The translations under genes were made by a program, and so were the position numbers. Shown here piece by piece: positions 2,957-8,123 of a DNA stretch of 37,708 nucleotides (position 1 is its first letter; each line of letters starts with the position of its first letter). The stretch covers positions 1 through 37,708 of the forward strand of contig CALITO010000035.1 in assembly GCA_938041455.1 (NCBI GenBank), in the 5' to 3' direction. Origin of the DNA: an uncultured bacterium (GTDB taxonomy: Bacteria; Armatimonadota; JACIXR01). The notes under the pieces were generated by a model that was not told the origin of the DNA, made no database searches, and saw only the letters and a list, made by a program, of their open reading frames with translations.

Positions 2957-5239
2957 CTACCTTATCCTCTCTATCTCCACTTTCTCCCCCTGAAAATCCC
3001 CTCTTATCTCGAGGTAATCCCCCTTCGCCCTCACTAAGAAGCTCCTCTTCTCCCCATTCAGCAAGTTGGTTGTGGTGACCTTATGGGATGAACCATTCTC
3101 TATCTTATACTCTCCATCTGAAATGATTATAACTCCGGGGGTGGTGAACATCGGCACAACATCAACTTGGCTATCTCCAGCTGCCACCCGGCCTCCTCTA
3201 CCCCATATCTTGAGCTCTATTTTGTCTGGGGAATACCTTCCCACTTGCACTAATAGATAACCTGGTTGAACTGACAGGGGCAAGGGAGGAGATAAAACCC
3301 GCAATTCCCCTTCCTCCATAGGCACAAATAGTTCAAAACTTCCATCTTCCCCCGGCGCCGTTATACAACCCTCGTAGAAGATTTGTTTCGGTATCCTCAA
3401 TATCAAAGTTGTCTTCAGGGGGGTTAAATTAGCAAGGGCTAAACCACTCCTTAAAAGCACGAACCTGCCCACTGAAGGGAAGAGGGTATCCATAAGCCAA
3501 AAGTCTGCTCCCCAAGCGAAAACGGATCCGTGGAACTCGTTGAATAATTTATTGTAAGGAAGCCAGTTCCGCCAAAGAGGGAAGGTAGCATATATTGCAT
3601 AACCAAGCCCTACTTTCTTTAACATTATCCCAGCCACTGCCATCCTCCCTCCCGCCCCCACTAACGAACCCAATGTAGCAAGTATATCCGTCTTTGCCCC
3701 CACATATATATAGCCTATGCATCCATCCACTGCGAATCCTTTAGCGTTTCCCTCGCTTTCCTGTTTCTTCTTAAGAAAGGGGAAAAGGGGATGTTCTATG
3801 TTCACACGAAAGTTGCCCGCTCCCTTAGTTATCGTGCACACTCCCTCTACTCCGAAATTCTGCTTCACAAAGTCGCTCACAATGGCTAAGAGCCCACCTT
3901 CATAACAGCCCAACCCCATATCCGCAACGAGCATCCCTCCGAAGAGTATGAATCCTTGAAGGAGCTCCTTAGCAGGTGGAGGAAGATAGAAAACTGAGGG
4001 GGCAAGGATGACTTTATAGCGATAAAGATTAACTTTGTCTAAATCCTCAACGCCCAGAAAATCTATTCCACCATATTTACAACCTAGTCTAAGGGCAAAG
4101 AATAGATCGCTTGGCTGATTGAGAAGAAGTGTTTTTAAGAAGCCATATAATCCCCTCCCTTGGAGGTTATAGCCTTCTAAAAATGGCTCGTATAAAACCG
4201 CTATTTGGTTATTGGGCTCCAGCGGTTGTTTTAAAAACCCTTTGCTTACAACTTCTTTCAAATGGGGAAGTTCTTTTAAAGTTGCCCAACTATCCACACC
4301 GATGCCCACTGCTCCTTGAAGATGGGCACTATTCAACCATTGCTGAAGTATAAAAGGGGTGGTCCTCCACTCCCCTTCTTTAAAAAGGCGGAAAATCACC
4401 ACGGGACTGAATAACCCTCCCCTGCGAGCTATGGCTATACCGTGGGCATTATGGGTTTGAAAATCGTTCTCCAACTCATCCGGATAAAGGGCTATAGTTA
4501 TCCCATCATATCCGTGAGGAACGGACATTATAGATTTGTAATCCTTGAGCATTCCCGTTATTACCCAGTGCTCCCTTTCATTGTCTATGCCTTTGATCTC
4601 GCCGAGCCACAAATTCAGCAAATCCCTCAGACCCCACCATTGGTAAATTGCTAAATCCAAAGAGGCACGAGTTATCCCATAACGGGGGATTTCCCTTTCC
4701 TTATCAGCCGATAGTTTCTCCACCAGGCTGAGGGTAACATCGGAGGGGAGATTCAACTCGGTTCCCCAAGCTTGGGAAAGAGCAGGAAAGGAACCATACC
4801 AGGAAAGGAGATAAGAGAGGAAATCTTCCTCTGTGTATGCTATAGCTCCAGCGGGGTCGTAGCCCAGAGCCCACACCAACTTGGGAATATCCTTGAACTT
4901 CCTCCCCATTTCCCTAACCCATATAGCGGTCCTTTCCCCGTATTCCTTATTCAAAGGACTGGGTGAACCGAAGTCCTTTTGCTCTATATGAAGGCAGAGG
5001 ATGGGAATGAGTTCTTGTTTAACTGCTTCCCTTATCAGTGCTTCCTTCTTTTCCAGTTGGGGGTCTTGATAGACTATATCCACCCAGAGGGAATTAAATC
5101 CCCACTTTTTATATTCGCTTATCTCGCTCGCTTCCTCTAAGCCGAGGGCGAAATAAAGAGGGGGAAGGGCATAGGAGAAAGAAGTCCAGAGAAGAAAGAG
5201 GGAAAATGATATCTTGCTTACAACCTCTTTAAGCATCAT
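2957..5239 (-). CDS. Secreted GH42/beta-galactosidase-like protein with degenerate active site
   Basis: The 760-residue protein has a signal peptide (about 1-24, ending SFSYA). A TIM-barrel part (about 25-340) has the GH42 landmark WYGSFPALSQAWGT (147-160), matching the family's 'RYG..ALN.AWGT'. A region resembling the beta-galactosidase trimerisation or glutamine-amidotransferase-like domain follows (about 343-445, KVILAPSVFYLPPPAKELL), then a beta-rich C-terminus. In GH42 enzymes the acid/base Glu lies in an Asn-Glu pair about 20 residues before this landmark. Here the place reads WALGYDPAG (123-131), with no Glu. The expected nucleophile position (family 'fwvmEqq') reads PVVIFRLF (279-286), also without Glu. 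It is probably not a normal retaining glycosidase and may bind rather than cut glycans. Its ATG overlaps the stop of the upstream gene (ATGA). Confidence 0.7.
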   Translation of the reverse strand: MMLKEVVSKISFSLFLLWTSFSYALPPLYFALGLEEASEISEYKKWGFNSLWVDIVYQDPQLEKKEALIREAVKQELIPILCLHIEQKDFGSPSPLNKEYGERTAIWVREMGRKFKDIPKLVWALGYDPAGAIAYTEEDFLSYLLSWYGSFPALSQAWGTELNLPSDVTLSLVEKLSADKEREIPRYGITRASLDLAIYQWWGLRDLLNLWLGEIKGIDNEREHWVITGMLKDYKSIMSVPHGYDGITIALYPDELENDFQTHNAHGIAIARRGGLFSPVVIFRLFKEGEWRTTPFILQQWLNSAHLQGAVGIGVDSWATLKELPHLKEVVSKGFLKQPLEPNNQIAVLYEPFLEGYNLQGRGLYGFLKTLLLNQPSDLFFALRLGCKYGGIDFLGVEDLDKVNLYRYKVILAPSVFYLPPPAKELLQGFILFGGMLVADMGLGCYEGGLLAIVSDFVKQNFGVEGVCTITKGAGNFRVNIEHPLFPFLKKKQESEGNAKGFAVDGCIGYIYVGAKTDILATLGSLVGAGGRMAVAGIMLKKVGLGYAIYATFPLWRNWLPYNKLFNEFHGSVFAWGADFWLMDTLFPSVGRFVLLRSGLALANLTPLKTTLILRIPKQIFYEGCITAPGEDGSFELFVPMEEGELRVLSPPLPLSVQPGYLLVQVGRYSPDKIELKIWGRGGRVAAGDSQVDVVPMFTTPGVIIISDGEYKIENGSSHKVTTTNLLNGEKRSFLVRAKGDYLEIRGDFQGEKVEIERIR

Positions 5240-5838
5240 ATTTTGAAACCCAGACTCCTTATTTCTTTTTCAATCAAATTAGGAAATCTATTCGTTGCTA
5301 TTTCCATATATTTTTCAATCCATTTCTCCTCTTTCCCCCTCATCCATCTAAGGGGTTCATATCTACAAATCATGCTCAGGAGGAAGGATATGGCTATATG
5401 TGCAGTTGGCTCTTCCAGTTCAAAGAGCTTGGGGAAATCCATTCCCTCCACACAACCAAGCAAAGACTTCAGGCTCAAGCGTGTGCCTGATTTTATAGGA
5501 AAATTTGAAAAGCAAAGGTGAAGACTTTGAAACAATCCCTTTTCCTTCACGATGACCTCCCTCTCGATGAGGTTTTCCCCTTCCCTCGTTCCCCTATTGG
5601 TCAAGCCGTGGGTGGGTTCGTCCTTGGGGTAGCCAGCCTTAGCCGATATCAAAGCCTTTGCGAAAAGTGAAAAGGAACAAAATAGAAGATGAGGTTTGCT
5701 CAACAGGGAAGCAGAGTGGGCAAGGCGCAGGTATTCTCTTGCTTGGGCAAGGCAGAAGGAAACATAAGGGAGGAGTTCATTTCTCCCGTTTGAAGCGGTT
5801 AGCGTATTCCCTTGTGAGTTGCAGATAGAAGCGTCCAT
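5236..5838 (-). CDS. YaaC-like protein (function unknown)
   Basis: The 200-residue protein resembles the YaaC family. QAREYLRLAHSASLLSKP (32-49), a hydrophobic stretch with FAKALI, and then a THGLTNRG segment follow the YaaC pattern of a helical 'Ala..Tyr' repeat, a 'KPLLLYY...KAL' core and a conserved His-Gly. It is shorter than the usual YaaC, and no catalytic role is known for the family. No signal peptide is visible, so it is likely cytoplasmic, which is odd between two secreted neighbours. The ATG at 5838 lies 62 bp inside the upstream gene and has no clear ribosome site. No alternative ATG, GTG or TTG occurs before the family-like region, so translational coupling is likely. Its TGA overlaps the next gene's ATG. 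Confidence 0.55.
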   Translation of the reverse strand: MDASICNSQGNTLTASNGRNELLPYVSFCLAQAREYLRLAHSASLLSKPHLLFCSFSLFAKALISAKAGYPKDEPTHGLTNRGTREGENLIEREVIVKEKGLFQSLHLCFSNFPIKSGTRLSLKSLLGCVEGMDFPKLFELEEPTAHIAISFLLSMICRYEPLRWMRGKEEKWIEKYMEIATNRFPNLIEKEIRSLGFKI

Positions 5839-6775
5839 ATTCCAGGCTCGGCTCTATCTCCGTGCCCTCGTGCCACTCGTTAAAGGTGCAGATTAAAACC
5901 CAGTCCACATCAGCTTTTATCGCATCTTCCCAAAGTTTTTTATAGAGTTTGCCCTCGTCTCGGAGGCGAATTATGGGGTTCTTTGGCCGGACATTAGAGT
6001 CATCATAACCAGGGATGACCGTGGCACAGGAGATTTTGCCTCTTTTTTCGCAGACATCCTTGGTTGTTTTATATCTCATAAACATATCCACCTTCGCCAG
6101 AACCGCCCCCACAGGGTTATATTCGTGCAAACCGTCAAAGGTATCCAGCCAGCGAGAATGGAGGGAATCACAGATGAAAATCGCCCCGCCCCTCTTCAAC
6201 CTTTTAACTTCCTTCACCACATCCCTCCATTTATCCCCCAATTGAGAGAGCGCCCTCCCATAAATGAAAATTACTGGCTTACCATCCACTTTTAAGAAAG
6301 CAGGACTGCCCCCATATTCGTCGAGGATATAAATTATATCCTTTACCGCTGCTTCCACCTTATCCACCGCTACCTGTGAAACCCTCTCATAATATATCGT
6401 TAATTTCAGGGGAAGCCCTTTCTCCTTTTCCACTATCTCCAACATCTTTCGGAAAGCCCTGTCAGTGAAATCGTCTATGCCCCACCAACTGCAGATAAAC
6501 CCATCTATCCCCGCCCATTTAGCCAGGGATAAGTGTTCTTTGATGACCTCGGGGTCATTGGAATCATAGAGTTTTAAGGGGTGGTTAGTTGTGGCACTAT
6601 CGGGTAGATTGTTGGCGAGAAGTAGCTCGGGGTCGTGCCCTGCCTCATTCCAGTGTATCCAACTACCCGATACCTCTGGCGTTCCATACCAGGGATAATA
6701 GAAGGCGAGCACCCTTTTCTGCGGTGCCGCAAGAGCAGCACAGACTATAAATAGCAAGGGCAATTTCTTGAACAT
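5777..6775 (-). CDS. Secreted glycoside hydrolase family 99-like protein (endo-alpha-mannosidase fold)
   Basis: The protein has 332 residues with a signal peptide (MFKKLPLLFIVCAALAA) and a GH99/GH71-type barrel. VLAFYYPWYGTPE opens the domain, GIDGFICSWWGIDD follows, and TFNEWHEGTEIEP holds two glutamates (Glu300 and Glu303) spaced like the catalytic pair of bacterial GH99 endo-mannosidases. Characterised members cut internal alpha-mannoside bonds, but many bacterial relatives have unknown substrates, so mannan or a mannose-containing exopolysaccharide is only a plausible target. It is the first gene of an overlapping three-gene cassette with the YaaC-like and GH42-like genes. The AAGGAG ribosome site touches the ATG, so initiation may be inefficient, or a TTG at codon 5 may be used. 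Confidence 0.82.
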   Translation of the reverse strand: MFKKLPLLFIVCAALAAPQKRVLAFYYPWYGTPEVSGSWIHWNEAGHDPELLLANNLPDSATTNHPLKLYDSNDPEVIKEHLSLAKWAGIDGFICSWWGIDDFTDRAFRKMLEIVEKEKGLPLKLTIYYERVSQVAVDKVEAAVKDIIYILDEYGGSPAFLKVDGKPVIFIYGRALSQLGDKWRDVVKEVKRLKRGGAIFICDSLHSRWLDTFDGLHEYNPVGAVLAKVDMFMRYKTTKDVCEKRGKISCATVIPGYDDSNVRPKNPIIRLRDEGKLYKKLWEDAIKADVDWVLICTFNEWHEGTEIEPSLEYGRFYLQLTREYANRFKREK

Positions 6776-6902: not shown

Positions 6903-8123
6903 ATGAAATATTTGTTGGCTTCCCTGCTCCTGATAACTCTATCCTTGCGAGCTGGCTTTCTTGCTGGAGCGAGCAGGGTGAGGATAACCCCTTTATATAG
7001 CGTCTATCTGGCGGGTTTGGGAAACAACAGGAAGAGCGAAGGGATTCACGACGATATCTACGCCAGCGCTCTTTATCTAAACGATGGCAAAACACAGTTG
7101 GTCATCGTTTCCCTTGACCTGATAGGGCTTTTTTACGATGATGTAGAGACCTTTAGAAAGAAACCCGCAGAAAGACATCACTTAAAGCCCACCGACATAA
7201 TCATCGCTTCAACCCACCTTCATTCAGGTCCCGATACACTGGGGCTGTGGGGTCCTGATGAATTCACATCAGGAGTTGACGAGGGTTATCTAAGTTTCCT
7301 CAAGGAGAGAATAGGGCAAGCGATTGATGAGGCAATAAAATCCGCCCAGCCGGCGAGATTAAGGGTAGGGGAGGGCAAAGAGGTAGAAGCAGCCTACAAT
7401 GCCCGGATGGAGGGTCTGCTTGACCCCACCGTCACTACCCTCTTCGTAGAGGATAAGGATGGCAAATGCATCGCAACCCTCGTCAACTACGCCTGTCATC
7501 CCGAGGTCCTATGGAGCGATAATAAGCTGATAACCTCGGATTATGTCCATTATCTGAGGGAATTATGCGAGAAGGAAATAGGGGGCATAACGGTTTTTCT
7601 CAATGGAGCATTGGGAGGAATGGTCACCCCCCTGGTGAAGGAACACAGCTTTGAAGAAGCACGCCGGATAGGTGAGGCTATAGGGAAGAGGATCTTGGAA
7701 GCGAGAAATAAAGGGGAAAGGATAAACAACCTCACTTTGAGGCATCGGGTCGTCCAATTCAAACTGCCAGTTGACAACCCTCGCTTTTTACTCGCCTCCC
7801 AAGTGGGGGTGTTAAGGAGGAGCGCGAAACAGGGAGTGGTAGATTCGGAGATGCATTTTTTAGATATCGGGGGGAAACTTCACATTTTAACAAATCCTGG
7901 CGAAGCCTTGCCCCAAGTCGGTTTCGCTCTTAAGGAATTGCTTTCCGCAAAATATAAGATGATAGTGGGCCTAGCCTGCGATGAGATAGGCTACATCCTA
8001 CCTAAGGAGGAGTTCGGAACCCAGCTTTACTCCTATGAGAGTTCTATGTCCCTGGGACCAAAAACGGCGGATATACTGCTTTGGATAAGCAAGAAGTTAG
8101 TGGGTGGGACGCCCCCCAAGTAA
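6903..8123 (+). CDS. Secreted neutral/alkaline ceramidase-family N-terminal domain protein
   Basis: The protein has 406 residues. A signal peptide (1 to about 20) leads into the neutral ceramidase N-terminal fold (amidohydrolase type). The zinc-site motif THLHSGPD (His105, His107) and a second histidine in VNYACHPEV (His199) are present. In true neutral ceramidases the nucleophile serine lies in a Gly-Asp-x-Ser-Pro motif. Here the equivalent reads GGMVTP (238-243), so Thr242 or nothing takes the serine's role. The family is common in bacteria without sphingolipids, so ceramide cleavage should not be assumed; amide hydrolysis of an envelope lipid or sugar derivative is possible. The last 27 bp overlap the convergent antiporter gene. 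Confidence 0.78.
   Translation: MKYLLASLLLITLSLRAGFLAGASRVRITPLYSVYLAGLGNNRKSEGIHDDIYASALYLNDGKTQLVIVSLDLIGLFYDDVETFRKKPAERHHLKPTDIIIASTHLHSGPDTLGLWGPDEFTSGVDEGYLSFLKERIGQAIDEAIKSAQPARLRVGEGKEVEAAYNARMEGLLDPTVTTLFVEDKDGKCIATLVNYACHPEVLWSDNKLITSDYVHYLRELCEKEIGGITVFLNGALGGMVTPLVKEHSFEEARRIGEAIGKRILEARNKGERINNLTLRHRVVQFKLPVDNPRFLLASQVGVLRRSAKQGVVDSEMHFLDIGGKLHILTNPGEALPQVGFALKELLSAKYKMIVGLACDEIGYILPKEEFGTQLYSYESSMSLGPKTADILLWISKKLVGGTPPK

Follow-up and report, generated by a model that had tools for sequence, protein, structure and literature searches.

HEPN domains that have lost their ribonuclease motif, such as MtlR, are probably non-catalytic RNA-binding proteins according to the comprehensive HEPN paper (PMC3710099), in which mtlR is described as lying in mannitol operons and MtlR as often lacking the motif and as proposed to repress its own operon by binding RNA. 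The YaaC family (Pfam PF14175) goes unmentioned in the main text of that paper, and a literature search, which left most subscription journals uncovered, retrieved by title neither a paper on the function of the YaaC protein, nor any for PF14175, nor any on Armatimonadota with GH99. The subject here is a short YaaC protein, referred to as mini-YaaC, which is encoded in a stretch of 37,708 nucleotides (the window; contig CALITO010000035.1, positions 1 to 37,708, assembly GCA_938041455.1) from an uncultured bacterium of the phylum Armatimonadota, as the second of three minus-strand genes that overlap in series, the first specifying a GH99-like and the third a GH42-like protein. MtlR is the closest functional parallel to mini-YaaC, being an HEPN protein of a carbohydrate operon without a firm motif; the two are likened by gene context only and not by sequence, and MtlR differs in belonging to mannitol-use operons, whereas mini-YaaC has glycosidase folds that appear to be exported as its partners, and in the overlap arrangement. 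For the YaaC family, so far uncharacterised, the cassette suggests a fold but does not yet prove a function.

Mini-YaaC (200 residues; 5236-5838, minus strand) very probably has an HEPN fold, one that is common among proteins that cut or bind RNA, as judged from its predicted structure. The AlphaFold2 model, made with an alignment of six sequences, had a predicted local distance difference test score (pLDDT) of 80.9 and a predicted template modelling score (pTM) of 0.80, with low confidence for the first 17 residues, which are most of the part encoded in the overlap with the first gene. A structure prediction of this 200-residue protein had been proposed as a check in a preliminary description of the locus, and when 237 Foldseek candidate chains were compared with the model using VIA-align, the six top rows of the PDB were all HEPN structures: 2hsb (Z 12.6, root-mean-square deviation (rmsd) 2.5 angstrom, 118 residues aligned), 4nqf (Z 10.7, 3.6 angstrom, 132), 3o10 (Z 9.7, 2.9 angstrom, 120), 1o3u (Z 8.3, 3.3 angstrom, 110), 1ufb, which we take to be an HEPN protein (Z 8.3, 3.5 angstrom, 115), and the toxin 7ae8 (Z 7.5, 3.7 angstrom, 123), after which Z dropped to 5.6 for unrelated rows; MtlR structures did not figure among the rows listed, which counts neither way. 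Mini-YaaC thus shares with the HEPN superfamily (2hsb, 4nqf, the sacsin HEPN domain and 7ae8) a predicted helical bundle that superposes over 110-132 residues at 2.5-3.7 angstrom, but it differs in that RX4-6H, the motif of HEPN ribonucleases, is not conserved and no significant match to the Pfam HEPN family was obtained. Arginine and histidine at such a spacing occur at differing places in single sequences, even within the genus: the window protein has R34-x6-H41, with lysine and glycine at the position of H41 in the two other genomes of the genus (G001 and G002, respectively), and the G002 protein has R72-x4-H77 where the others have K72. For this reason mini-YaaC was not filed as an HEPN ribonuclease, and among the open reading frames of the window and their Pfam matches there was neither a nucleotidyltransferase nor any other antitoxin-like partner beside it.

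The membership of mini-YaaC in the YaaC family is clear from its score against PF14175 (E 2.4e-27; 96.6 bits, cut-off 27). Only two stretches of the profile are matched, 37-147 and 247-307 of its 307 positions, about 100 middle residues (profile ~147-247) being missing, and the protein was therefore filed as a mini variant and not as a standard member. Like all full-length members aligned, it carries an HG and an RYxP motif: A62, H77, G78, G101, R159, Y160 and P162 are invariant in all 13 YaaC proteins aligned, 10 of them from outside the genus. It departs from the family in its length, in the loss of the strand-rich middle and in the overlap of its gene with glycosidase-type genes. A model of a full-length YaaC (pLDDT 72.3, pTM 0.63) placed this strand-rich part, which the mini form lacks, at about residues 153-280, before the last helices; compared with 999 chains, it too matched 2hsb best (Z 10.9, rmsd 2.8 angstrom, 119 aligned), followed by the toxin RnlA (Z 5.0, 3.6 angstrom, 114), and an HEPN fold is likely for the YaaC family as a whole on the strength of these models. 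By sequence, no significant solved relative of mini-YaaC was found, and a viral fold library gave no match at E 0.001.

The three genes are a GH99-family gene (5777-6775, 332 residues), mini-YaaC, and a GH42-like gene of a secreted type (2957-5239, 760 residues). They overlap by 62 bp at 5777-5838, where the GH99 gene, at its 3′ end, contains the first codons of mini-YaaC, and by 4 bp at 5236-5239, where the stop codon of mini-YaaC and the start codon of the GH42-like gene share an ATGA. The overlaps thus agree with the preliminary description, although the span of 5236-6775 that it gave for the cassette takes in just the GH99 and mini-YaaC genes and leaves out most of the third, which reaches to 2957. 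Mini-YaaC was present in three of 41 genomes (its own and 40 relatives), all of one genus (G000, the genome of the window, G001 and G002), and the gene order is kept in all three. The 62-bp overlap is exact in each of them with an ATG start; a TTG further upstream in G001 and G002 would, if used, lengthen it to 68 bp. Between mini-YaaC and the GH42-like gene, G000 and G001 have an overlap of 4 bp, and G002 has one of 8 bp (20 bp with the longest start). The first ATG of mini-YaaC is the sole ATG, GTG or TTG ahead of the Pfam-matched part, which runs from residue 27 onwards. The start codon that follows this ATG in frame is codon 46 of the window gene, codon 37 in G001 and codon 79 in G002. Because no alternative start precedes the matched part, the 62-bp overlap is no annotation artefact. 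The ribosome-binding sequence of mini-YaaC, judged by eye, is weak, which would fit a start by coupling to the translation of the GH99 gene.

The frames are real and not due to chance, as they are kept across the three genomes, and their codon pattern is that of purifying selection. The 200-codon frame of mini-YaaC, the conservation of which had been named beforehand as a point on which the proposal could fail, is retained at 71% and 69% identity in the two other genomes, compared with 78% (G001) and 77% (G002) for the GH99 protein and 64-67% for the GH42-like protein. Most nucleotide differences in mini-YaaC fall on the third codon position (94-113 of 165-203). The nonsynonymous divergence (dN) was 0.21-0.27 for mini-YaaC, 0.13-0.14 for GH99 and 0.26-0.30 for the GH42-like gene; synonymous divergence (dS) was saturated or nearly so, with no value returned for the GH99 and GH42-like pairs and at least 1.3 for mini-YaaC, so that its dN/dS of 0.06-0.16 over 200 codons is a rough ratio.

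The outer two genes encode glycan-active folds with signal-like N-termini, and mini-YaaC does not have such an N-terminus, which on sequence alone bears out the earlier view of two exported products and one that is not; signal peptides were judged by eye, without a predictor. The GH99 protein, whose hydrophobic N-terminus was read as a Sec signal, matched PF16317 at E 1.4e-42, and its best solved relative is the endo-alpha-mannosidase 4acy (E 1.5e-38). It resembles the GH99 endo-alpha-mannosidases 4acy and 5lyr over the whole domain and in both NEWHEG glutamates: E300 and E303, identical in the three genomes, align with the glutamate pair of 4acy in NEWHEG(T)xIEP, which we take to be the catalytic pair of GH99. 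The product of the first gene is thus probably an active, exported GH99-type endo-acting alpha-glycosidase. Its single 332-residue domain contrasts with most of the closest phylum relatives, which have an extra C-terminal part; in most of the 27 GH99 loci inspected outside the genus the domain belongs to a longer frame of ~550-870 residues, whereas the protein of the genus stops at the domain boundary, near the start of the YaaC gene. In the closest phylum relatives (L099-L122) the extra part comprises about 200 residues or more, with no Pfam match in three of the four tested.

The GH42-like label held in part. Alone, the window protein matched no Pfam family up to E 1, but a profile of 29 relatives, 26 of which came from 36 loci outside the genus, reached the GH42 beta-galactosidase 3tts (E 3.3e-18), with which the family shares the barrel and a trimerisation-type domain. 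PF08532 was matched by 20 and PF02449 by 15 of the 29 members, and neither by the window protein. In the GH42 clan an Asn-Glu (NE) acid/base follows barrel strand 4; this position is Y127-D128 in all three genomes of the genus, and the column is variable, with Glu in three of the 29 aligned sequences. The column of the nucleophile, aligned to MEQTP of 3tts with less certainty, holds Glu in four of 29 and Ser or Thr in the genus. The GH42 catalytic glutamates are thus not kept, and the protein more likely binds or presents a glycan than cuts one as a GH42 enzyme would. D245, N264 and R272 are nearly invariant in the family, and a different chemistry may therefore occur. BLAST located the GH42-like gene in 35 loci outside the genus, and in 12 of these (L052, L059, L064, L067, L068, L071, L073, L074, L075, L076, L080 and L083) it adjoins the RNase III gene rnc, often together with fabF, and so sits in a fab-rnc cluster.

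The idea that the locus could give YaaC a glycan context across the phylum did not survive the comparison with other genomes. In a whole-genome profile search PF14175 was found in seven of 291 genomes of the phylum, and in four of the 288 outside the genus; the GH42-like family was present in 82 (79 outside the genus) and GH99, at E 0.001, in 172 (169 outside). None of 36 fetched GH42-like loci from outside the genus (5-19 kb each, most of them picked among the top matches in the 79 genomes) had a GH99 profile match, neither partner gene was found within 1.5 kb in the 27 GH99 loci from outside the genus (of 30 listed), and the surroundings of all four YaaC genes showed neither a GH99 nor a GH42-like profile match. 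Only two of the 79 genomes with the GH42-like family (G257 and G265) carry YaaC, on contigs other than those of the GH42-like matches listed. The statement on YaaC linkage rests on the PF14175 search because a profile built from three YaaC sequences was insensitive, missing three of the four divergent YaaC genes in the same set. A phylum-wide GH99-YaaC-GH42 locus was thus ruled out, as the genes were unlinked in every locus fetched from outside the genus; the linkage is kept within the genus and was not seen beyond it, and the cassette is therefore a genus-level invention and no general home for YaaC. Relatives of the mini form were found neither in viral contigs nor in plasmids, and in a genome-contig collection the only hit was a contig matching that of G002, strict 8-residue patterns making this weak evidence of absence. 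A carbohydrate-linked neighbour was seen for three of the four YaaC genes outside the genus, namely a heparinase II/III gene ~120 bp upstream (L085:2378-6373), a ThuA gene ~20 bp upstream (L087:9052-11073) and a weak GH42-like gene in convergent orientation (L086:2040-4997), an observation that comes without a background rate and was not relied on.

The account we favour, although tentatively and with rather less than even confidence as a whole, is that mini-YaaC is an RNA-binding regulator translationally coupled to the exported GH99 and GH42-like proteins. The three genes would form a self-contained operon of one genus, the first exporting a GH99-type endo-acting alpha-glycosidase and the third a GH42-derived glycan-binding or glycan-presenting protein. 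Mini-YaaC would remain in the cell as a minimal HEPN domain devoid of RX4-6H, binding RNA without cutting it and making the output of the two exported proteins depend on one another or on the supply of sugar, much as has been suggested for MtlR in its mannitol operons. The gene arrangement, its conservation in the genus and the codon pattern of purifying selection are observed, and the HEPN fold and the export of the partners are predicted; we infer RNA binding, regulation and its direction, the substrate and the binding of glycan by the third product. Several points speak against the account. The Z scores of the HEPN matches (12.6-7.5) lie below ~13, where values can come from the common arrangement of helical bundles, and the two best hits of Foldseek itself, also HEPN, had E values of 0.61 and 1.3, not significant alone. 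A Foldseek search of the PDB with the full-length YaaC model gave no HEPN among the 50 rows listed. The Pfam HEPN family PF05168 matched one of seven YaaC sequences, weakly (E 0.21), and was not listed for the other six in the single-sequence tables (up to E 1 for the window protein). No conserved leader RNA or terminator stood out for the cassette, the promoter and terminator counts being at the level of shuffled sequence. Finally, synteny among the three genomes reaches well beyond the cassette on both sides, and the linkage is therefore one inherited locus and not three independent observations. Should mini-YaaC indeed regulate exported glycosidases, it would join MtlR as another HEPN domain recruited to the control of a sugar operon.

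That the residues shared by all 13 YaaC proteins are so universal is typical of a functional site, and His77-Gly78 together with Arg159-Tyr160-x-Pro162, distant from it along the chain, might form a split RNA-cutting site, which would make mini-YaaC an active though unusual HEPN ribonuclease, perhaps acting on the cassette's own message. The toxin 7ae8 among the HEPN matches would fit such an enzyme; the canonical RX4-6H, however, is not conserved and an antitoxin-like neighbour gene is missing; we regard cleavage as unlikely. An equally doubtful view holds that a mobile YaaC in degraded form landed where the GH99 gene ends and was kept as a passenger because its frame carries translation to the GH42-like gene. 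The patchy occurrence of YaaC (7/291 genomes), its presence on plasmids and viral-collection contigs, the loss of ~100 residues in the mini form and the lack of linkage elsewhere would all be explained in this way, but the low if rough dN/dS, calculated near saturation of dS, and the invariant residues kept in the three genomes mean that the mini-YaaC protein itself is under selection. Quite improbable, finally, is the proposal that the cassette serves one glycan-use or exopolysaccharide pathway, with mini-YaaC as a cytosolic enzyme whose substrate would be the sugar that is released, or the nucleotide form of that sugar. The flanking glycan-active folds do look exported, and carbohydrate-linked genes do adjoin three of four YaaC genes outside the genus; on the other hand, the predicted fold is HEPN and not that of a sugar enzyme, the neighbours amount to a sample of four without background rate, and the linkage is confined to the genus. 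A defence-system reading of the cassette was ruled out, as PADLOC matched none of its three proteins.

Full-length YaaC was followed directly by a gene for a protein of 169-177 residues with a sub-threshold match to the nucleoside 2-deoxyribosyltransferase family PF05014 (three were tested, with E values from 7e-5 to 5e-4). Such pairs were seen in a relative from the phylum (L008:919-2499, genome G179), on an Escherichia coli IncY plasmid (L088:3986-5532) and on Bradyrhizobium and Sphingomonas plasmids (L089:2225-3786 and L090:3992-5553). Of 5,426 complete E. coli genomes, 106 carry 80% or more of the pair from that species, at 111 places of which 108 are on plasmids, and the pair looks like a mobile two-gene module. 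PADLOC gave no match for full-length YaaC or its PF05014-like partner, and no YaaC turned up in a collection of phage records queried with the plasmid form from E. coli. A wider reading, in our view improbable as a whole, would join these observations to the cassette: the entire YaaC family would be an unrecognised HEPN branch with rearranged active residues, in which the invariant HG that follows helix 2 and the RYxP that closes helix 3 stand in for RX4-6H; full-length YaaC would be a mobile RNA-targeting effector with a deoxyribosyltransferase-like partner; and the genus would have domesticated an HEPN core, stripped of the rest, to switch a secreted-glycosidase operon at the RNA level. An HEPN fold would in any case make the function of YaaC directly testable, through RNA binding or cleavage and the two groups of invariant residues.

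An Rfam scan for a riboswitch or leader returned a tRNA as its sole match. The cassette is bordered on one side by a divergent plus-strand gene (6903-8123) that encodes a protein with a signal-like N-terminus and a match to the N-terminal domain of neutral/alkaline ceramidase (PF04734, E 4.7e-13), and on the other by a convergent plus-strand GH3 gene (798-2915; open reading frame and Pfam), and both genes flank it in all three genomes of the genus.

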